Position numbers and translations under genes: made by a program
Notes under the pieces: model-generated
Seen by the model: only the letters and a program-made list of their open reading frames with translations
Database searches by the model: none
What the model was told of the DNA's origin: nothing
Shown here: positions 3,210 to 24,477 of the stretch, piece by piece
Numbering within the stretch: position 1 is the stretch's first letter
Layout: each line of letters begins with the position of its first letter
From: a virus
Direction: 5' to 3' (one strand)
Virus record (IMG/VR): IMGVR_UViG_3300045926_000040
Location: 1-24,784 of that record
DNA length: 24,784 nucleotides

Positions 3210-3902
3210 ATGAGGGTGGAGACGATCGGCCAAGCGACGCTGTACCTTGCGGACTGTCTGGAAGTGATCCAGGCGCTACCCAAGGTGGACGCGCTTATTA
3301 CCGATCCACCCTACGGCATGAAAACGAACACGATGAACAAGTCGTCCGGTCGCGGCAAGAACATCAACGGCGGTTTTAGGTTCGTAGAGGCGAAGGACTA
3401 TGGCGAGCTTGTGGGCGACGACAAGCCTTTCGACCCGGCGCCGTGGGTGGCGTTCAAGAGGGCGATCTTGTGGGGCGGCAACCACTACTGCAGCCGCCTG
3501 CCTGATGCCTCGAAGTGGCTGATTTGGGATAAGCGCGAGGAAACGGCCTCAGATGACAATGCAGATTGCGAACTAGCATGGACCAACCTGGGCGGGGCGG
3601 CGCGCATGCACCGGCAACTATGGCGCGGGATCTGCCGCCGCGGGGAAGAGAATATCAGCACCGGACAAGAGCGCGTCCACCCCACGCAGAAACCGGTCGC
3701 CCTCATGGCGTGGTGCATCGAACAGTGCAAGATCGCGGCTAACGCACTAGTCCTAGACCCTTACATGGGGAGCGGAACTACAGGCGTCGCAGCAGTGCGT
3801 GCCGGGCATCGCTTCATAGGTATCGAGATAGCCGAGCAGCACTTCGAGACTGCGTGCGAGCGAATCGACATCGCGCAACGTCAGGAGAGGTTATTTGCGT
3901 AG
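3210..3902 (+). CDS. Site-specific DNA methyltransferase, N6_N4_Mtase family (beta class)
   Basis: This enzyme should transfer a methyl group from S-adenosylmethionine to an exocyclic amino group in a specific DNA site, probably adenine N6. Residues 32-35 are DPPY (catalytic motif IV, the form typical of N6-adenine enzymes). HPTQKP is at 157-162 and DPYMGSGTTG (SAM-binding motif I) at 183-192, followed by GIEI at 204-207. Motif IV before motif I is the beta-class order. At 230 aa it is short, with a small central region for target recognition and no restriction partner in view, so it is best read as an orphan phage enzyme that protects DNA or marks it. The start is ATG 3210 or GTG 3216; the latter has the better-spaced AAGGG. 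A 13-codon frame (3172-3213) overlaps the start and could couple translation. Confidence 0.93.
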   Translation: MRVETIGQATLYLADCLEVIQALPKVDALITDPPYGMKTNTMNKSSGRGKNINGGFRFVEAKDYGELVGDDKPFDPAPWVAFKRAILWGGNHYCSRLPDASKWLIWDKREETASDDNADCELAWTNLGGAARMHRQLWRGICRRGEENISTGQERVHPTQKPVALMAWCIEQCKIAANALVLDPYMGSGTTGVAAVRAGHRFIGIEIAEQHFETACERIDIAQRQERLFA

Positions 3903-3921
3903 CGACGACATATAGAGCGGC

Positions 3922-4671
3922 ATGAGAGGGATTTCCTACCCGAAGTGTTGGGCGCTCGTGAGCGGCGGGAAGGACTCGCTTTCAAACGCCCAAGCGCTTG
4001 ATGAGGCCGGGAGGCTTTACGCCTGCATAGCGATTAAAACGCACCTCTGCACCCCTGATTGGGAGCAGTTCGTTATTGACACCTGTAATCAGCGTAAGTG
4101 GGGGCTGGAAATCTACGAGGCCGAGCCAACTGCCTACGAGGACTACGTGCAGAAATATGGCTTCCCTGGTCCGTCCAAGCACCGCCAAGTGATGACCGAG
4201 CTAAAAGGTAAGGTTATCCGCAAATTCCGCCGCGCTTGGCCGAAGGCCATTCTCGCTAGTGGCGTCCGCTCTGACGAAAGCACCAAGCGCGCCGCAACGA
4301 CGAAGCCCGTGGGTTTCTGGGAGGGGGCGCCGATCCTCGCGCCCATCTACGACTGGACCACAGACGAAACGTGGGCGTTCTTTCGGGATCGCGGCTTTGA
4401 GCGCGCGCCGGCCTATTCGACGCTTCAGATCAGCGGCGACTGCCTCTGCGGGGCCTATGCACGCGAGGATGAGTTCCGGGCCATCGAATTCCACTACCCA
4501 GAGGTCGCTGGTCGCCTGAAGGCTCTCGGCGAGGCGGTTAAGGAGAAGCATCCGACGCGCTGCCAATGGGGCTGGGGCGCGAAAATGCCGATGAAGCCCA
4601 AAACCTCTAGCGAGGCGCTGGTCTGCGTTGAATGCGCGCCGCGCGACTTATTCGAGGAAGTGCCAGCGTGA
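3922..4671 (+). CDS. PP-loop ATPase of the PAPS reductase / DndC-like group
   Basis: SGGKDS at residues 14-19 is the PP-loop that binds ATP or an adenylylated substrate in PAPS reductases and related sulfur-transfer enzymes. SGVRSDES at 113-120 matches the second conserved region of that family. Cysteines at 174, 176, 214, 235 and 238 (GDCLCGAY and CVECAP) could hold a metal or an iron-sulfur cluster, as in DndC-type proteins. The 249 aa length is normal for the family. The gene lies 19 bases after the DNA methyltransferase and overlaps the next gene by GTGA, so all three are probably co-expressed. A role in DNA or tRNA modification is inference; true sulfate assimilation is unlikely because no partner enzymes are present. 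Confidence 0.85.
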   Translation: MRGISYPKCWALVSGGKDSLSNAQALDEAGRLYACIAIKTHLCTPDWEQFVIDTCNQRKWGLEIYEAEPTAYEDYVQKYGFPGPSKHRQVMTELKGKVIRKFRRAWPKAILASGVRSDESTKRAATTKPVGFWEGAPILAPIYDWTTDETWAFFRDRGFERAPAYSTLQISGDCLCGAYAREDEFRAIEFHYPEVAGRLKALGEAVKEKHPTRCQWGWGAKMPMKPKTSSEALVCVECAPRDLFEEVPA

Positions 4672-16044: not shown

Positions 16045-17634
16045 TCAGCGGATGAACCACAGTTCAACGGTTGCGGATACGTCTTTCATCTTTCGCCAGC
16101 GCGGGTTGACAGGATCACCCTTGCGGATGAGCACTTGGCCGACTAGGCCGATTACGTTCCACTCCGGCCGCTCGGCGCGCGGGATATACGGCACGGCTGG
16201 GTCCCACGCCGGATTAAGCTTGCGCTTCTTCTGCACCTTAGTCGTGGCATTGGGCGGTATCGTCATGCCCTGAGGAATCTTGTAGCTCGCCACGCTGCGC
16301 ATGACGCGCCCGGTCGGCTTGGTTTGGTCCGCCTCTTCCCACTCGTAAACGGTGTAATCCTCAAGCAGGTATTCGCCGGTTTCATCGTCGCGCAAGTATT
16401 TGTTCGTCCACTTCATGGAAGCGGAATTGGCGACGATAGAAGCGTGGCCGGACTTCGGCCGTACTACGCCCATGATGTCGTCAAGTGGGTCGCCCACAAC
16501 CGCCCGGCGCACCTTGTCTCCGACCAGCACCACCGTGTTGCCTAGCGGGATGGCATTACCGCTTACGCTCTCGAAAAACTCGGCGTAGTCGGCAGGCGTG
16601 CCCCATGCAGTGCCGCCGTCTTGAGAACTTACACCGTCGCCGCGAAATGCGAACTCCGTATCAGGAGTCCCGTTTGTATCCGAGCCGCACGACATAAAGT
16701 TGAATGCACTGCTAGCCGCGCGAAAAGCGTTAAAACTACTGATAGTCGAAGCGTAAGATTCGCTTTGCGCCTCGATGAACGAAACCGAGTTGCTCGCCCC
16801 TGTGTGCTGTACGGCAATACCAATTCGAGCCGCAGTTTCAGTAACGATGAGACGGGCAGAGGCTGACGGGTTCGTGTTGTTGATCCCGACGCACTGATTG
16901 CGGTCGATACGCAGACCTTCTATAGAACCTTCCGCCCCATCCGGTGACGTAGCAAGTACCAGTCTGGTAGGCATGTCTCCGGAGCCTGCGGTTCCGTCTA
17001 CGGCAGCAATGATTTCTGCTCCCAAGGCAAAGTCTGTTCCATCAGCGCCGTAAAACTGAGTGGTGCCTAGGCGGTCGTCTGCCTGCGCGACCGTGAACGT
17101 CCCGACAGTACCAGCGCGCGATTTACCGAACTGGATAGCTGGACCCCCAGCGTCGGCAGTGAATCTCGCAAACATCCCGAAAGATTTATCCGCAGTAGTG
17201 CCTGCGACTTGAAGCGAGGGCAACGTAGAAGACGCCGTAAGAGCGGACGTGAACCCGACAAGCACGCGCTGCGATGAGTCAACTTGTAGCGCCCCCGTGC
17301 CGCCAGTCGAGACGGCGAGGTTGTTAGCCGAAGGAGAGGAAAGCCCGTTTTGCTCATCGCCGACCTTGAGAGCCGGGGTCGAAACTGAACCGTCAGCCGT
17401 GATGAGTTGCCCGCTGTGGGTCACGGCGCCGCTAAAGGTATGCGCTCCGCTATGCGTGACCGGACTACCCTGCCACGTCACGGATGACGGCCATATAACG
17501 AGCGCGTCGCCTGCAGCGTCGCCTATTTGCGTGTCACCCTCTACGACCAGATCAGTCTCAATCGTAGAGATTGGCTCCTCTTCCGCGCCGCTCCAGACCG
17601 TGCCGCCTACCTCGTCATTGGTCCAGATCGTCAT
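16045..17634 (-). CDS. Tail fibre/appendage with C-terminal peptidase G2 chaperone domain (529 aa)
   Basis: Residues 1-345 form a beta-rich Gly/Ser/Thr/Ala fibre with elements such as RNQCVGINNTNPSASARLIV, typical of tail appendages. From about 345 to 515 the sequence matches the peptidase G2 intramolecular chaperone: ADYAEFFE at 348-355, DDIMGVVRPKSG, NKYLRDDETGEYL, and YIPRAERPEWNVIGLVGQV. This domain, known from phi29-type neck appendages, trimerises the fibre and then cuts itself off. MEROPS places it among glutamic peptidases, so a glutamate is expected as nucleophile, but I cannot name the residue here. ATG 17634 overlaps the adaptor stop as ATGA. It is probably one of two host-recognition proteins. 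Confidence 0.85.
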   Translation of the reverse strand: MTIWTNDEVGGTVWSGAEEEPISTIETDLVVEGDTQIGDAAGDALVIWPSSVTWQGSPVTHSGAHTFSGAVTHSGQLITADGSVSTPALKVGDEQNGLSSPSANNLAVSTGGTGALQVDSSQRVLVGFTSALTASSTLPSLQVAGTTADKSFGMFARFTADAGGPAIQFGKSRAGTVGTFTVAQADDRLGTTQFYGADGTDFALGAEIIAAVDGTAGSGDMPTRLVLATSPDGAEGSIEGLRIDRNQCVGINNTNPSASARLIVTETAARIGIAVQHTGASNSVSFIEAQSESYASTISSFNAFRAASSAFNFMSCGSDTNGTPDTEFAFRGDGVSSQDGGTAWGTPADYAEFFESVSGNAIPLGNTVVLVGDKVRRAVVGDPLDDIMGVVRPKSGHASIVANSASMKWTNKYLRDDETGEYLLEDYTVYEWEEADQTKPTGRVMRSVASYKIPQGMTIPPNATTKVQKKRKLNPAWDPAVPYIPRAERPEWNVIGLVGQVLIRKGDPVNPRWRKMKDVSATVELWFIR

Positions 17635-18224
17635 GCTAGCCTCACGATGGGCGCGGCCGGGTAGCGGCCTTCCTTATGCTCGCCGTTCACCTGATCGCGC
17701 ACGCCCTGATAGAGCGTCTCCCAAGGCGGCATATCCTCGAATTTCTTCAGGAACGGGATTGCTACCGACATGGAAGCGTAGAGATACAGGTCAGGGTTGT
17801 CCGTGAAAAGCGTATTCACCGCAGAGGACAGCGCCGCCAAGCGCTTGTAGTACCAGAGTTCCACCGTCTCTGTGGGCGTGCGCGGGAACACCAGCTCGTC
17901 CCCGAAAATCGTGAACATCTTTTCGGTGGACTGCGTGTTGGATTCGAACGTGGCGAAGAACTGCTCAGGCGTGATGTACTTCAGCCAGCCCACCGTAGAG
18001 CCCTGCAGGCGAATGCCGCGGATGGAGATATAGTCGCTCGGGAGGCTCATATATTGCGACGACGGCGTGCTGCTTACCCGCTGCTCCATCTGCCGCGCGC
18101 GCACCTCGCGCCCGATGCGAGCCTCGCCTAGAGAGACGAATTCCGGCGCCCGCGACGTGAGCCCACTCCGGTGCAGCCAGTTCTCTATGGCGGTCAGCAG
18201 CTCGTTGTAGGTCGAGATCGCCAT
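17631..18224 (-). CDS. Head-tail adaptor protein (SU10/gp6-like type)
   Basis: The 197-aa product begins with TYNELLTAIENWLHRSGL, continues FVSLGEARIGREVRARQME and SLPSDYISIRGIRLQGS, then FGDELVFPRTPTETVELWYY and a helical C-terminus. This order of a helical N-terminus, a PSDY-type strand pair, and a YYKR segment is typical of adaptors that bind below the portal in SU10-like and other short-tailed phages. ATG 18224 has GGAGG 8 bases upstream. It overlaps the G2 fibre gene by ATGA. In a standard layout this gene would lie close to the capsid gene; here it is separated by the accessory cassette. Confidence 0.75.
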   Translation of the reverse strand: MAISTYNELLTAIENWLHRSGLTSRAPEFVSLGEARIGREVRARQMEQRVSSTPSSQYMSLPSDYISIRGIRLQGSTVGWLKYITPEQFFATFESNTQSTEKMFTIFGDELVFPRTPTETVELWYYKRLAALSSAVNTLFTDNPDLYLYASMSVAIPFLKKFEDMPPWETLYQGVRDQVNGEHKEGRYPAAPIVRLA

Positions 18225-19049
18225 TTAGGCGGCCTCCATCATGACGGGTTCAAACAGAGACTCGTCGCCATCGGCAAGGCGCCGATAGAGCTTCCCCACG
18301 GCCCGCAGCGATGTCTTTTCCTTTACCTCGCGCATGCGGTCGCGGCCTCGCTTCCAGGACGGGCTGCCGAAATTGCCTCGGGCGTACTCGATGGCCTCCC
18401 ACGGATCCATGTCCTTGTTCACGAGGTACGGGTAATCCCAGCCGAGGAGTTCTACCGCGCCAGGGTCATCAAACGTAATCACGTTCGCGCTCACCGCAGA
18501 GGCCGTCGAAATCTTCGTGCAAGGCTTGAGCAGGATGTCCAAGTCGTGCCGCCGCTGCAGCGCGATATGCAGGTTGTACTTGGATACGTTCGGCAGGAAC
18601 TCCTCGGTCAATACCACGCTCGCGCCCTTCCAGAACTCAGGCCGGTTGAACGCCTTGCCGATATAGGCCGTTCTCACCTGATCCTGCGGCGCCGCGCCGC
18701 TGATCCTGAAATCCCACTGGTGCGGAATGACCGCAAACCGAGCATTGGGAAAATCGCGCTTGTAGAAGGAAATGCAGGAACGGTTCGGGACGATCAGCAC
18801 GTCGATCAGGTCGCCCCACTCGTAGCGCTTCCCCCTGTAGCAGTAGTAATCGATGATATCGAGCACGATGCGGTTGCCGCGGTCCTTCGCATCCAGCACC
18901 AGCCCGCGCTCGGCATCCTTCACGAATACGACGGTATCCTTCTTCGTGCCGTCGATGGTCTGAAAGAACACTCGGCAACCGAGGTGATCCGCAATGTGAT
19001 TCCCGCGCAGCTCGGATGAAGTGAAGTCGTTATTGACGCAGAAAATCAT
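18225..19049 (-). CDS. Glycosyltransferase-like protein (GT-B fold, 274 aa)
   Basis: The product looks like a GT-B enzyme: N-terminal half with IVLDIIDYYCYRG (61-73) and a VLIVPNRSCISFYKRDFPNA strand-helix, IPHQWDF at 108-114, and a C-terminal nucleotide-binding region PCTKISTASAVSANVITFDD (176-195) running into PGAVELLG. The latter follows the K/E-x-x-A-x-A-x-G-x-P-V-I logic of donor-binding motifs in imperfect form. The family is uncertain, and the enzyme is short for a two-domain GT-B. It lies at the end of the sugar/methyl cassette, overlapping the methyltransferase upstream by ATGA. A role in adding sugar to a virion or host glycan is inference. Confidence 0.6.
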   Translation of the reverse strand: MIFCVNNDFTSSELRGNHIADHLGCRVFFQTIDGTKKDTVVFVKDAERGLVLDAKDRGNRIVLDIIDYYCYRGKRYEWGDLIDVLIVPNRSCISFYKRDFPNARFAVIPHQWDFRISGAAPQDQVRTAYIGKAFNRPEFWKGASVVLTEEFLPNVSKYNLHIALQRRHDLDILLKPCTKISTASAVSANVITFDDPGAVELLGWDYPYLVNKDMDPWEAIEYARGNFGSPSWKRGRDRMREVKEKTSLRAVGKLYRRLADGDESLFEPVMMEAA

Positions 19050-19564
19050 TTGTAGCCCACAATCCGCATATCGCGCGGCTCTTTCATCTTGTAGTGCGCC
19101 GGCTCCTGGTGGATGTCGTGTAGGCCGACGATTTTTAGAAGTCCTGAAAGCGAGCGCGGGCTATAGCCCCACTTGTGTCGCATCGGCAGAGCTTTGTCTG
19201 CCGGGTCGCCATAGACGGCTTTTAGGGCCTCCGTCCACAGCGTGTCATGCTTCAGCTTCTCGGCCTCCAGAATCATCGCCGCGACGCCGTGGATGTTCGG
19301 GCACTCCACCGTGAAGGTGCCGCCCTTCTTCAAGATGCGGACCCACTCGCGCAAGATGCCAGCGATTTCCCACGGCCAGAAATGCTCTATGACGTGGCAA
19401 CTGAACACCTCGTCAAAGGTGCCGTCATCGAACGGGAGCGGCTTGGAAATGTCCATTTGGCGGTAGTTGACGCCCACGGGCCCGTCACCCTCTCCCAGAT
19501 CGACGTTCAGCCACTCCTCACCCGGGAATGTGCGCCCGCCGCAGCCGAGGTTGATCTTCTTCAC
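19046..19564 (-). CDS. SAM-dependent methyltransferase, class I (172 aa)
   Basis: NLGCGG at residues 5-10 is the SAM-binding motif I, WLNVDL at 18-23 provides the acidic residue for the ribose, and FDEVFSCHVIEHF at 50-62 is the typical post-motif. LKKGGTFTVECPN follows as strand 5. The pattern is that of small methyltransferases common in polysaccharide and O-antigen gene clusters. The C-terminal KWGYSPRSLSGLLKIVGLH is also typical. The start is GTG 19564 (GTGA overlap) without a clear Shine-Dalgarno, so translation is probably coupled. The substrate is unknown; a sugar is plausible given the neighbours. Confidence 0.8.
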   Translation of the reverse strand: MKKINLGCGGRTFPGEEWLNVDLGEGDGPVGVNYRQMDISKPLPFDDGTFDEVFSCHVIEHFWPWEIAGILREWVRILKKGGTFTVECPNIHGVAAMILEAEKLKHDTLWTEALKAVYGDPADKALPMRHKWGYSPRSLSGLLKIVGLHDIHQEPAHYKMKEPRDMRIVGYK

Positions 19565-20061
19565 GGTACGCGGAGGAGGTCGATTGGAGCCAAGTCTGGC
19601 AATTCGCGCTTTTTCTGCACCACCCAGCCGAGGCTGATCCGGCCCACGATGCGGATATCGGTTGCGTCCGGGAACACTCTTACGACGTGCTCCGGCTCCA
19701 TGCGCCAGTAGTCATCCGGATAGGCGTGGCGGCCCTTCTTCGTGCTCGCGATCGTGACCACCAGCCAGCCGCCAGTTTTCAGCACCTCCCACATGGCGGT
19801 CACGGCCTCGCGCCACTTCTCGACGTGCTCGAGCGTCTCTGTCGTCACCACGGCATCGAATTCGCACGGCTTGAAGTGATCCAGAAGGTCTTCAGCCTTG
19901 CACACCACGTCCACGCCGCGTCCTGGGCGCATGTCCGTACCGATGCGGTGCGGCACAAGCTCGGTCAAGCCGCCGTTTACATCATAAGAACCAACCTCGA
20001 GCACGTGCCCGTCAAGCTTGTCAAGGTGATCCATGACGTAGAGCATCACGCCTGGGTGCAT
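19561..20061 (-). CDS. SAM-dependent methyltransferase, class I (166 aa)
   Basis: [10 protein letters not shown] at residues 21-30 is motif I in the variant that has SYD instead of [16 protein letters not shown] at 68-80 and [14 protein letters not shown] at 95-108 are the later strands. [15 protein letters not shown] resembles the substrate region of small glycan-type methyltransferases. ATG 20061 with GGGAGAGGGC upstream is preferred over GTG 20073. It overlaps the HNH gene by 16 bases at its start and the other methyltransferase by GTGA at its end. It is less similar to its neighbour than two duplicates would be, so the two probably have different substrates. Confidence 0.8.
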
Positions 20062-20402
20062 GCCCTCTCCCACTGACCACGAGAATTCCTCACTAAGTTC
20101 TTTCCGAATCCGCTGATGTCTTGGCGCCCCTTACGCATCATGTCGTGTGTGTTTTCCTTTGGCGTACCTAAGAAAAGGTGGTCTGGGTTAACACAGGAAC
20201 GCACATCACATGTGTGACATACATATTTGCCAGACGGGACAGGACCGTGCATTTGCTCCCATACGTAGCGGTGCACAGTGGTCGGCTTACCCAGCACTCG
20301 GCGATTCACCATTCCATAACCCTTGTAGCTAATATGGCCTGTCCATATCCAGCAGCTACAAAATGGAATGCGGATGATTTTGTCTTCAATGCGTTTATCC
20401 AT
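20046..20402 (-). CDS. HNH endonuclease (HNH_3 type, 118 aa)
   Basis: [14 protein letters not shown] at residues 17-30, VHRYVWE at 43-49 and [20 protein letters not shown] at 61-80 define the HNH_3 domain; His63, Asn72 and His75 are the likely metal-binding and catalytic residues, and the Cys pairs probably hold a structural zinc. [13 protein letters not shown] after the domain is also conserved in the group. Free-standing enzymes of this type are often selfish homing endonucleases in phages. The gene sits between the TPR glycosyltransferase and the first methyltransferase with short overlaps on both sides, so it may have inserted into or hitch-hikes with the cassette. Confidence 0.88.
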
Positions 20403-21810
20403 TGGCGAACGCCTTCAATCGTTCAGATACTTCTTTCAGAGGCCATTCCTCCTCTTGCCTGAAAAACTCTAGCGACGAGTACCAAGGCGATTTGCTTCCC
20501 TTCAGCCCGTACCACCACCTCGGCTTGCTCGGCACTAACGCCCAACATTCCTTGCCCAGCGCGCCGGAAAGGTGAACCACCGCAGTACAGACCGAAATGA
20601 CAAGATCCAGCTCGGCGACGATGGCGGCCGTGTCGTCATAATCATCCGACTCCGCAGCCCGCGCCCAATGGTGGATTTTGATTCCATTTTCGGCCTCGAA
20701 TTCCTGAATGTCGTCTATCGGGTCCTGATACTGCAGCGATACCCACGACACGCCAGGAACGCGCAGGATGGGTAACAGGCGCTCGAGCGACAGGCTGCGG
20801 CGCTCGCGAAACGTGTTCTTGTATCCTCCGGTCCAGGCGATACCGACCTTCTTCCCGGGGAGCGAGTCGAGCAGCGCGCGCCACTGGATTCGGCGCTCCG
20901 GGTCCGCCACGAGGTAGGGCTTACCCGGGAAATCCTCGTCCCGGTTGCGGCGATAGGTCGCGAGCGAGCCGATCAGGCAGTGCGCGTCGAATTTGCGCCC
21001 GGCGAGCCAATCCTTCTCCGTCTGCTTCGTCTTCCTGGTGGAGTGGATCTCGATTCCAGGGAATGAGCGCTGGAATAGGCCGCCCAGCTTCTCATCGCAG
21101 TCGAAGACGACATACTTCTGCCGCGCAATGACTTCAGGCAGGATGGACGCGAAGCTGATCTCGTCGCCCAAGCCCTGCTCGCCCCGGATGTAGAGGTCAT
21201 GCCCGTCCGAGCCATCCCAGTAGGGGCACTCCGGATAGGGTGGCTTTAGCGGGCGATACTTGGACTTCCCGATAAAGCGCTCATAGCCCCGCCAGCCAGG
21301 CGCCCACTCCCCGAGCATGAGATGCGCGTAGCCGAGCGACTCATGCACGTCCCATAGGTCAGCCTTGAAGGAAAGCGCCTTCTCGCCCAAGTCGATCGCA
21401 AGGCGCGGGTTGCAGTCGTAGACCGCGAGCAGGCACAGAAGCGCAAGTGAGCGCTCGTCATTCGGCCGCAGGCGCCGCGCCTCTTGCAGGAGCCGGCGGG
21501 CGTCCTCCAGGCGCTGCATGCCGATGCAGGCGGCCGCGAGGTTGTTGCGCGTGTCGTAGCGGTCCTTGAGCCCGAGGGAGCGCTTAAGGAGGTTGTAGGC
21601 AAGCCCGTGGCGCTGCATCCGCACACAGACGCGGCCGGCGATGAGGAGCGCAATCGGGTGGTCCGGATCGTCGTCCAGGACGCCGTTCGCGATGGTCAGC
21701 GCGTCCTCGAGCTTCCCCGCCTCTTCGAACTGGTGCGCGATGGCGAGGTCGATATCCGCCTTGGTCGCCTTGGCGTCGAGTGGCTTGCCGACGAGCGCTG
21801 GGAGGTGCAT
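20395..21810 (-). CDS. TPR protein with C-terminal glycosyltransferase-like domain (471 aa)
   Basis: Residues about 19-180 contain several tetratricopeptide helix pairs (for example [20 protein letters not shown] and [20 protein letters not shown]), a protein-binding scaffold. From about 195 the sequence becomes a GT-B-type domain with GEQGLGDEI at 210-218, KVGIAWTGG at 321-329 and [19 protein letters not shown] at 402-420, which resemble heptosyltransferase-type (GT9-like) and other TPR-glycosyltransferase fusions of bacteria. ATG 21810 overlaps the upstream stop as TGATG. The gene starts the accessory cassette after the capsid group. It may glycosylate a virion protein or host surface; acceptor and donor are not shown by the sequence. 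Confidence 0.8.
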
Positions 21811-22169
21811 CAGACGATGATCTTGTCAACGCATTTCAGGTAGGACCATTCTGGGCGGCTTACCATCCGCATCAACTCCTTCGGGTCATTGATGTCCACG
21901 CCCTCCACGTGCCACTTGAGGAGGATGGCATCCGGGATGTGGGCCGCATGGACCCAGCTCTTCTTGACGCCCTTTTTCCAATGAGCGTCATCCTTCTGCA
22001 GCGCCTTGGACGCCTCGAGTTCCGCATACACCGAATCGAACTCCTGGCGTACCGCCCATTTCTCGCCCTCGCGGCCGTCCGAGGAGAAATAAGTCCGCAC
22101 CCCGCTAAACGGGTCGTAGTCGAGCAGGCGCTCGTACTGGAATGGATGGTCGTTCTTGATGATTTTCAT
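21810..22169 (-). CDS. Conserved phage protein next to the capsid gene (119 aa)
   Basis: ATG 22169 is chosen because AGAGAGACC lies just upstream and it overlaps the stop of the zinc-ribbon micro-gene; the frame is open to 22400 but runs into the terminator and capsid gene. The product is charged, with DYDPFSGVRTYFSSDGREGE at 17-36, a helical middle, and a C-terminus with HIPDAILLKWHVEGVDIND and RPEWSYLKCVDKII. It has no membrane segment or enzyme motif. Similar small proteins lie between capsid and tail genes in several phages, but their role is unknown to me. Confidence 0.65.
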   Translation of the reverse strand: MKIIKNDHPFQYERLLDYDPFSGVRTYFSSDGREGEKWAVRQEFDSVYAELEASKALQKDDAHWKKGVKKSWVHAAHIPDAILLKWHVEGVDINDPKELMRMVSRPEWSYLKCVDKIIV

Positions 22170-22264: not shown

Positions 22265-22275
22265 AAACGGCACCG

Positions 22276-22333
22276 AAAAAAGGCCCCCACAGCGCCACGG
22301 CTGGACGTGGCAAGGGAGTTTTGCGTGGGGGCC
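22276..22333 (-). terminator. Intrinsic terminator after the major capsid gene
   Basis: On the minus strand GGCCCCCAC (22333-22325) and GTGGGGGCC (22290-22282) form a perfect 9-bp stem followed by six T residues (22281-22276). A second small hairpin (GCCACG/CGTGGC, about 22294-22311) lies in its loop. It stands 8 bases after the end of the capsid gene, the usual place for a terminator that limits expression beyond the highly expressed capsid gene. Confidence 0.85.
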
Positions 22334-22341
22334 GTGAGTCA

Positions 22342-23361
22342 TTACTTGGCGTAGTTGATATCTCCGACCTTGAAGTGCGCGAACGGGTTCTGCACCACAA
22401 GGCAGGCCTGCAGCCAGACCATGCGTTTCTGCGCGTGGCCGTTGATGGCCAGTTCCTTCTGCGAGAACGGCTGCAGGTACGCGACCCCTACGTAGTCAGG
22501 GTCGATACCGAACAGCACAGAAGTTCGCATGAAGCGATCGGCCTTGATGACGTGCTCGCCGAAGTCGGAGATGTACAAATCAGCACCCCCGATGATCTGC
22601 GCCTGGTCGCGGCTCGGCACCTCGCGGAACCTGGTCGCCACGCCAGAGAACGCGGTGCTGATTTTCTGCTTGCCGCGTGGCGGGACGAGAATCACGCGCG
22701 GGTCGCCGCCGTTGTCGAACGTGTTGGCAATGCAGTTCTTCAGGATCGTTTCCGAGATGGAGCCGGCTGAGGTGGAGTCCGTGGGCGCCGTGATCGGGAA
22801 GCCGTTCGCCGTGGTGAATCCTGGCGTGGTCCCCGCAGCGCCTTCCTGCACGCTCGTACCGTTCGCGGTCTTGATGGTGGCCGCCTGCTGGCCGGAGTAG
22901 CCCAGCCAAGACTCGAGCGACGCCATGAGGGCAGCGGATGCCGCTACACCGGCCGTGCCGGCGTTATTCTGCAGGCACGCGGCCTCAAGGTCGCGCTTAA
23001 GCTCCTTCACGCGCTTTGCCATCTGGTAGGACATCGACCCCACGTTGCCGTAGGAACGCACGGCTTCCTGCGTGTTGGACACGAAGGCGACGCGGTCCAT
23101 CAACTGGCAGTGGTTCTTCAGGTTCACCGCCGGGATGGCGGTGTCGGCCGCAGCGTCGTCACCTTCGATTGTTGCGTTGCCGGCGGTGTGGGCGGACAGC
23201 TCGTCCGTGAGCCACTGATGCAGCCTGTTATCCGCCTTGAGCCGTTTCGCCATCTGCACGAATGGCGTCTCGGTCGGGGAGATCATGTACGCGGCGTCGT
23301 GGAAATCCTCCGCGTTACCGATCGTTTGGTACGTTTGCAGCGTACCGGATGGAACAGTCAT
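22342..23361 (-). CDS. Major capsid protein, SU10/DUF5309 type (339 aa)
   Basis: The 339-aa sequence opens with a segment around DAAYMISPTETPFVQMAKRL (28-47), has VNLKNHCQLMDRVAFVSNTQ and a Gln/Asn-rich helical middle, then VILVPPRGKQKISTAFSG and FGEHVIKADRFMRTSVLFGI, ending in VVQNPFAHFKVGDINYAK. This matches the HK97-fold capsid family first defined on phage SU10. The order scaffold, capsid, terminator fits. ATG 23361 has a GAGAG upstream, 21 bases after the scaffold gene. No delta domain or protease is seen in this part of the window. Confidence 0.88.
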   Translation of the reverse strand: MTVPSGTLQTYQTIGNAEDFHDAAYMISPTETPFVQMAKRLKADNRLHQWLTDELSAHTAGNATIEGDDAAADTAIPAVNLKNHCQLMDRVAFVSNTQEAVRSYGNVGSMSYQMAKRVKELKRDLEAACLQNNAGTAGVAASAALMASLESWLGYSGQQAATIKTANGTSVQEGAAGTTPGFTTANGFPITAPTDSTSAGSISETILKNCIANTFDNGGDPRVILVPPRGKQKISTAFSGVATRFREVPSRDQAQIIGGADLYISDFGEHVIKADRFMRTSVLFGIDPDYVGVAYLQPFSQKELAINGHAQKRMVWLQACLVVQNPFAHFKVGDINYAK

Positions 23362-23382: not shown

Positions 23383-24477
23383 TTAGCGCCTTACGGGTTG
23401 GATGAACGAGCCCATTACCGCCGCGGCAGCGTCGATATCGTTGCCGTTCTTGGAGAGGGCCGTCCGTGCGTTCTGCGCAGCCTGGGTCTGCGGATTCGGC
23501 TTCTGCTCGCTGGCGCCTCGCTTGAGCACCGGCGGCACGGCCACTACCTTCTTCTCGGCGGTTTCTTTACCCGCCTTGAGAAGGTGGAACTGGTGCGCGT
23601 CGTGAAGCACGCGCATAACGCGCGGGTCGTATACCTCTCCGACCTCGTCGGGCTTGAACCCGTATGTGTCTACGCCACGCTTCAAGAGCGCGCCGTAGAG
23701 TTCATCGCTCCAGCTCGGAATCGCTTCCTTCAGCTTCGCTCTGGATTCCTCAACCGCTTTGTCGAGACGCTCCTTGCGTTCCTTCGACTGCTGACCGAGG
23801 ACCTTTTCGTACTCCATGCGGACCGCTTCCTGTGCCGCATTCACTTCCCGCGCGCGGTTGGAAAGCCGAACGTATTCGTTCGGGTTCTCCGCGGCGAGCC
23901 TGCTCCAGTCCACGTTCGCGAGGTCGGGGGCTGCCGCCTGCAGAACGAACCGGTGCAAAGTTTCAAGGGCGGACAGGTACTGCGTCCGCTCCTTTTCCAT
24001 CGCCTGCTGAGTGTGCGCCTCCACCTGGCGGCGCTGCTCGGCAAGCTCCTGTGTCTTCTGGGTATAGTCGGCCTTGAGCATCCGGCCTTCCCGCAGGTCT
24101 GCGAGAGTGACTTCTTCCTCCCACTCCTTTTCCCCGTTCTTCATGGGGATCTTGAGCTTGATGTCCTTCACCTCGTCCCACTTGACTTCCTCTTGCGCGG
24201 CTTCCTGTTTGGCTTCCTCGGCTGGCTTTTCAGCCTCTGCGGCGGGCTTTTGCTCGGCCGCTTGCTGGGCGGGTGCTTCCGCTGGCTGGTCTGCCACGAA
24301 TCGCCCCTGCGCGTCGCGCGCGCGCTCGGCGCTCTGCACCTGAGGCTCGCTCGGCGGCGCGATGAACCGCGACATGATGTCCTCGTCCGAGGCCGGCACC
24401 GGGCTCGTGAGAGGGAGACTCTGCTGCGGGGCTTCCTGGCTTTGCACGCCTTGCGTGGCTTGCGCGAGTGTGGTCAT
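23383..24477 (-). CDS. Scaffold-like head assembly protein (364 aa)
   Basis: The protein is highly charged and helical. Residues 1-100 are low-complexity, rich in Gln, Ala, Glu and Pro (PAEAPAQQAAEQKPAAEAEK). Residues about 120-250 form a long coiled-coil-like part (REGRMLKADYTQKTQELAEQ and KEAIPSWSDELYGALL). The C-terminus is a short basic segment ending FIQPVRR. Such a layout directly before the capsid gene is that of a scaffold protein, which is present in the prohead and leaves or is cut before packaging. ATG 24477 overlaps the upstream gene as ATGA. Confidence 0.8.
   Translation of the reverse strand: MTTLAQATQGVQSQEAPQQSLPLTSPVPASDEDIMSRFIAPPSEPQVQSAERARDAQGRFVADQPAEAPAQQAAEQKPAAEAEKPAEEAKQEAAQEEVKWDEVKDIKLKIPMKNGEKEWEEEVTLADLREGRMLKADYTQKTQELAEQRRQVEAHTQQAMEKERTQYLSALETLHRFVLQAAAPDLANVDWSRLAAENPNEYVRLSNRAREVNAAQEAVRMEYEKVLGQQSKERKERLDKAVEESRAKLKEAIPSWSDELYGALLKRGVDTYGFKPDEVGEVYDPRVMRVLHDAHQFHLLKAGKETAEKKVVAVPPVLKRGASEQKPNPQTQAAQNARTALSKNGNDIDAAAAVMGSFIQPVRR

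Follow-up and report, generated by a model that had tools for sequence, protein, structure and literature searches.

A putative virion-dedicated protein-glycosylation module between the capsid and adaptor genes of an uncultivated SU10-type podovirus

Why should a run of genes for sugar and methyl transfer lie between the major capsid and head-tail adaptor genes of a short-tailed phage? The question is raised by IMG/VR virus record IMGVR_UViG_3300045926_000040, the 24,784-base stretch of DNA analysed here and referred to as the window, in whose coordinates all positions are given. The anchor enzyme of this gene cassette combines an N-terminal TPR domain with a C-terminal glycosyltransferase domain (TPR-GT), and we consider it probable that the interval is a virion-dedicated protein-glycosylation module of an SU10-type podovirus. 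An initial annotation of the DNA had put forward a joint sugar and methyl-transfer module tied to virion genes. This proposal is sustained by the linkage of the genes, by the location of bacterial relatives of TPR-GT beside pilin and flagellin genes, and by the fusion of a homologue of one of the methyltransferases to a glycosyltransferase. The features of the region, from scaffold to adaptor, are as follows.

23383-24477, minus strand: scaffold gene
22342-23361, minus strand: major capsid protein (SU10_MCP; PF17236, 1.7e-74; phrog_1328), the upstream anchor of the cassette
22270-22345, minus strand: terminator-like hairpin and uridine run just 3' of the capsid stop codon, from RNA folding
21810-22169, minus strand: u119, a small protein (phrog_3982, unknown function)
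20395-21810, minus strand: TPR-GT, TPR-glycosyltransferase of 471 residues (TPR_19, 1.4e-8)
20046-20402, minus strand: HNH_3 endonuclease (PF13392, 2.2e-15; phrog_1872, 4e-29)
19561-20073, minus strand: MT1, class I S-adenosylmethionine (SAM) methyltransferase (Methyltransf_11, 5.1e-8; phrog_32762, 9e-16)
19046-19564, minus strand: MT2, class I SAM methyltransferase (Methyltransf_11, 6e-12)
18225-19049, minus strand: GT-B-like (GT4-type) protein, a tentative label (about 57% identical proteins in relatives)
17631-18224, minus strand: SU10_adaptor head-tail adaptor (PF24175, 1.4e-22), the downstream anchor of the cassette

Virion genes and cassette share the minus strand, and SU10-type capsid and adaptor genes bracket the cassette, so that the order from capsid to adaptor is u119, TPR-GT, HNH, MT1, MT2 and the GT-B-like gene. 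The open reading frames for sugar and methyl transfer described in the initial annotation lie at the positions listed, with profile matches that agree, and the overlaps of a few bases that it reported between genes on a common strand were recovered, adjacent cassette genes abutting or overlapping by 1 to 28 bases. A longer antisense open reading frame overlaps the GT-B-like gene; we regard the cassette genes as real because a contig from a relative encodes TPR-GT, MT1, MT2 and GT-B on the same strand. The u119 gene, which the annotation had left unnamed between capsid and TPR-GT, is a core gene of the SU10-type phage group and not a cassette member, with a u119-like match in 28 of 40 capsid-adaptor intervals that contain TPR-GT and in 44 of 52 that do not. 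No tRNA was found in the 24,784-base window. A tail spike or fibre gene with a Peptidase_G2 autoproteolytic domain (16045-17634) lies between the adaptor and the next virion gene, two genes that are directly adjacent in relative L004 (loci are cited by L numbers), without an intervening spike or fibre gene. Elsewhere in the window, on the plus strand (3210-4671), a DNA N6/N4 methylase adjoins a PAPS-reductase-like protein.

Single-protein scans of viral contigs returned no TPR-GT and one contig with the GT-B-like protein, and profiles were needed. A TPR-GT profile search yielded 22 viral loci, in whose gene maps TPR-GT follows the capsid gene and precedes that of the adaptor. These were pooled with capsid-selected and GT8-selected loci, the window, podovirus MW202512 and a contig assigned to a Thiotrichaceae metagenome-assembled genome (MAG). 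In this pooled set TPR-GT lay between capsid and adaptor in 40 of the 40 loci with both flanks, some of them near-identical; 15 cut loci agree with this location, and outside the slot there are two weak homologues, scoring 93 and 112 bits. TPR-GT is present in one copy each in ten phage records searched whole, and is carried by both SU10_MCP and Phage_capsid_3 phages.

The dimensions of the slot differ accordingly. In the 52 relatives without TPR-GT the capsid-adaptor gap measures 0.33-2.6 kb, with a median of 1.0 kb that bears out the annotation's statement that the two genes usually lie close together, as against 1.7-5.3 kb in the 40 loci with TPR-GT (4.1 kb in the window). The gap is short in the annotated phages Venkman and MW202481, and longer in MW202462, which has no annotated transferase there. 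Our control set comprised 80 capsid-selected loci, the adaptor being visible in 64; TPR-GT was found in 12 of these, a GT-A glycosyltransferase (GT2/Anp1-like) after u119 in 26, neither in 26 and both in none. The loci with GT-A in the slot fall within L113-L192.

Looked for in related phages, as the annotation had suggested, the five-gene block proved linked and not scattered in all relatives open to this check; its exact set varies, and only TPR-GT is constant. The closest relative, IMGVR_UViG_3300044711_000030, is 86% identical to the window in capsid, 73% in TPR-GT, 60% in MT1, 41% in MT2, 57% in GT-B and 35% in adaptor; it has a GT8-like gene in the place of HNH, and the order of MT1 and MT2 is swapped. 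In MW202512 the order is capsid, two small genes, TPR-GT (35%), HNH (44%), methyltransferase, GT8-like and adaptor. Across the set the accessory enzymes include GT8, FkbM, other methyltransferases, a capsule-type glycosyltransferase (weak match) and a DegT aminotransferase. In L113, L116 and L140 the TPR-GT match stops 11-38 bases before the adaptor match, and therefore TPR-GT alone may be the minimal cassette. The DegT/DnrJ/EryC1 aminotransferase of two cassettes (L015:11540-12256 and L027:11412-12464) suggests an amino sugar. A trypsin-like peptidase gene follows TPR-GT within the cassette at L019:9516-10106, also in L021 and probably in L022.

What this constant enzyme may do is indicated by its predicted fold. 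TPR-GT comprises an N-terminal TPR region (about residues 17-178) and a C-terminal GT9-like GT-B domain (about 199-471). The AlphaFold2 model, built from 19 sequences, has a predicted local distance difference test score (pLDDT) of 91.5 and a predicted template modelling score of 0.86. Its C-terminal half superposes on the GT9 structure 3tov (VIA-align Z 18.2, 3.2 Å, 256 residues) and on the heptosyltransferase WaaF, 1psw (VIA-align Z 16.9, 3.5 Å, 251 residues). Because the Pfam GT9 profile gave no match to the window protein at E 0.1, we term it GT9-like in fold and not a GT9 member. Phage and bacterial members alike retain a GEQGxGDE motif (G210-E217), W326 and D402. We propose that TPR-GT may be an initiating protein glycosyltransferase.

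Bacterial homologues of TPR-GT were examined in 79 loci, in which, within the stretch taken, a type IV pilin gene was found in 13 and a flagellin gene in eight; these calls were made by motif, and all eight that were checked by Pfam were confirmed. A GT8-like gene was present in 24 of the 79. In a tree of 119 glycosyltransferase domains (quick method, midpoint root), the 24 phage rows require a single change and form one clade (Shimodaira-Hasegawa-like approximate likelihood ratio test, SH-aLRT, 89), which lies in the part of the tree holding all pilin-linked rows, the flagellin-linked rows being in the other part. As a guess from the homologues, the hosts of cassette phages may be betaproteobacterial.

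The pilin linkage of the nearest bacterial relatives gives rise to the main rival explanation, in which the target is on the host side: the module would act on a surface protein, most probably type IV pilin, or on some other host glycan, and so block superinfection or change the receptor late in infection. Serotype-modifying glycosyltransferases do occur in temperate phages, according to PMC12619734. Against such a role, the genes stand in the late virion block, always beside the capsid gene, a second and unrelated type of glycosyltransferase fills the same slot in other phages, and we noticed no integrase in the window, although no search was aimed at integrases. That the place beside the capsid is fixed, and that another glycosyltransferase type occurs there in sister phages, favours a virion target without proving it, and we judge modification of the host to be unlikely.

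The methyltransferases can be connected with the sugar through their bacterial counterparts. A Methylococcus protein in L037 is 44% identical to MT2 in its C-terminal part and weakly matches GT4-type transferases in its N-terminal part; this fusion lies in a pilin-linked cluster, and in L109 the counterparts of its two halves are neighbouring genes. Because homologues of MT2 are fused or adjacent to a glycosyltransferase in bacteria, we read MT2 as a sugar methyltransferase and propose, from these comparisons of sequence, that it may be a sugar O-methyltransferase. MT1 is 60% identical in L004, within the same block. The alternative that TPR-GT glycosylates protein and the methyltransferases act elsewhere, on virion side chains, DNA or RNA, draws on the generic nature of the profile matches of MT1 and MT2. 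We think it improbable, given that both genes lie in the cassette in relatives, that MT2 homologues are fused or next to glycosyltransferases within bacterial TPR-GT clusters, and that FkbM, whose family is linked with sugar O-methylation, is used in other cassettes. Fusions of GT4-like and MT2-like parts were seen in TPR-GT clusters at L037:2857-4461, L050:2697-4313 and L055:11702-13015 (Methylococcus and a Burkholderiaceae MAG), with pilin near the fusion gene in L037 and L055.

The label GT-B-like for the product of 18225-19049 fared less well. That the protein has homologues is clear, about 57% identical proteins being encoded in L004, L006 and L017, whereas its link to glycosyltransferases is weak: Glyco_trans_1_2 matches two of these three relatives, at best with E 0.034, and does not match the window protein, which has no Pfam, PHROG or NCBIfam match. 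Its AlphaFold model, built from two sequences, is too poor for use (pLDDT 37). The protein found no match in annotated phages, solved structures or ten genomes with TPR-GT clusters, and its hhalign comparison with the glycosyltransferase half of the Methylococcus fusion was not significant, with a collinear path.

The HNH gene, which the initial annotation had included in the joint pathway, was rejected as a member of it: it looks like an inserted homing endonuclease, of the HNH_3 type and sporadic in occurrence, and is missing from most cassettes. Judged by sequence, it is probably a free-standing homing endonuclease and a passenger in the cassette. Endonuclease matches were found in 5 of the 40 capsid-adaptor intervals with TPR-GT versus 2 of the 52 without, too few cases for the idea, likewise rejected, that the cassette is driven by a homing endonuclease. 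Those seen in different phages (L004:1539-2198, minus strand; L014:4744-5412; window 20046-20402; L002:8073-8549) include HNH_3 by profile and NUMOD4-like and LAGLIDADG-like kinds by eye. That the capsid-adaptor junction is an insertion-tolerant site gathering unrelated cargo, without a joint pathway, would accommodate the several endonuclease kinds, the differing sets and orders of accessory genes and the tRNA and SGNH hydrolase in the slot of phiM5, yet we find it the least credible explanation, as the contents are strongly skewed to sugar and methyl transfer, strong TPR-GT homologues were found nowhere else in these phages and in bacteria a homologue of MT2 forms one protein with a glycosyltransferase.

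From the common strand and the gene overlaps we infer that the cassette may be expressed alongside virion parts, although a terminator-like hairpin separates it from the capsid gene. This hairpin (22270-22345; -32.4 kcal/mol, z -2.7) was missed by a simple scan; hairpins stand at the same post-capsid place in L008, L010, L011 and L026 and not in L004. Lying with its uridine run after the capsid stop codon, it would keep enzyme levels below that of the capsid. We infer that the capsid is the leading candidate acceptor, with u119 or the adaptor second. A longer capsid loop was seen in the window and L004 only.

The virion-glycosylation module that we favour might work as follows. By analogy with the flagellin glycosyltransferase FlmG, the TPR domain would grip a co-expressed virion protein in the host cytoplasm, and the glycosyltransferase domain would attach a first sugar, drawn from a host nucleotide-sugar, to Ser/Thr. 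The GT-B-like protein would add a further sugar, and MT2, probably with MT1, would O-methylate the glycan. As the accessory enzymes differ between phages, the coat sugar would vary. A broader version of this proposal, which we advance tentatively and with less confidence than the module itself, is that a group of uncultivated podoviruses practises acceptor-specific capsid O-glycosylation with enzymes from bacterial pilin glycosyltransferases, that exchangeable sugar and methyl modules diversify the coat, and that sister phages use GT-A in the same slot.

Several points weigh against virion glycosylation by this predicted module. Comparison of TPR-domain identities with those of capsid, u119 and adaptor across relatives did not single out an acceptor, TPR domain and capsid showing no specific co-variation, and the capsid alignments showed no extension, insert or serine/threonine-rich tail specific to cassette phages. 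The mutual exclusion of TPR-GT and GT-A (Fisher p 0.0009, unthinned) loses significance once relatives are thinned at 70% capsid identity (p 0.15), and for this reason is not relied on. The phiM5 inserts mean that slot position alone could indicate an insertion-tolerant site, the assignment of the 18225-19049 product to GT-B is weak, and the likeness to FlmG is drawn from architecture.

Few phages are known to have glycosylated virions, and the choice of acceptor is unclear. Here, in many environmental podoviruses, a TPR-guided enzyme with pilin- and flagellin-side relatives has a fixed place beside the capsid gene. Should our reading be correct, virion glycosylation would be commoner than thought, acceptor recognition would be open to testing one domain at a time, and phages of this kind could be found by taking the capsid-adaptor slot as a marker.

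Among known systems, the GT9 enzymes (3tov and WaaF) share with TPR-GT the GT-B fold that superposes on its C-terminal domain and differ from the phage protein in its added TPR domain. The GT41 enzymes OGT and SPINDLY (SPY) share the TPR and GT-B architecture and rank first in a Foldseek search with the TPR-GT model. Since the overall template modelling scores are low (0.3-0.4) and the GT41 sequence match is confined to the TPR part, with none in the glycosyltransferase domain, we regard this as a common arrangement for which kinship is not demonstrated. TibC-type enzymes were absent among the structural matches listed; a TibC-annotated glycosyltransferase, with a methyltransferase and a pyridoxal phosphate enzyme, lies just upstream of terminase in another podovirus (L112, MW202713). 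In mycobacteriophages, phage glycosyltransferases are likewise involved and virions bear glycans on capsid or tail-tube subunits (Freeman et al. 2023, as summarized in PMC11256854 and PMC12619734); phages and hosts are different there, whereas here TPR-GT occupies a fixed slot, the methyltransferases are variable and the system is a genomic prediction. Among the papers that our literature search covered, there was no direct precedent for TPR-GT in phages or for TPR-type pilin glycosylation. FlmG of Caulobacter crescentus is a flagellin O-glycosyltransferase of TPR and GT-B architecture, whose TPR domain alone binds flagellins and whose glycosyltransferase domain without TPR fails to restore flagellin modification (PMC7591256). 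It differs from TPR-GT, which is phage-encoded, adjoins a capsid gene, has 471 as against 596 residues, groups with pilin-linked and not flagellin-linked homologues, and is accompanied in the phages by no pseudaminic acid genes that we saw. Both proteins have an N-terminal TPR and a C-terminal GT-B domain, bacterial homologues of the phage enzyme are found near flagellin genes, and TPR-GT would be expected, like FlmG, to act in the cytoplasm on the subunit of a large polymer; FlmG is the nearest characterised design to the phage enzyme.

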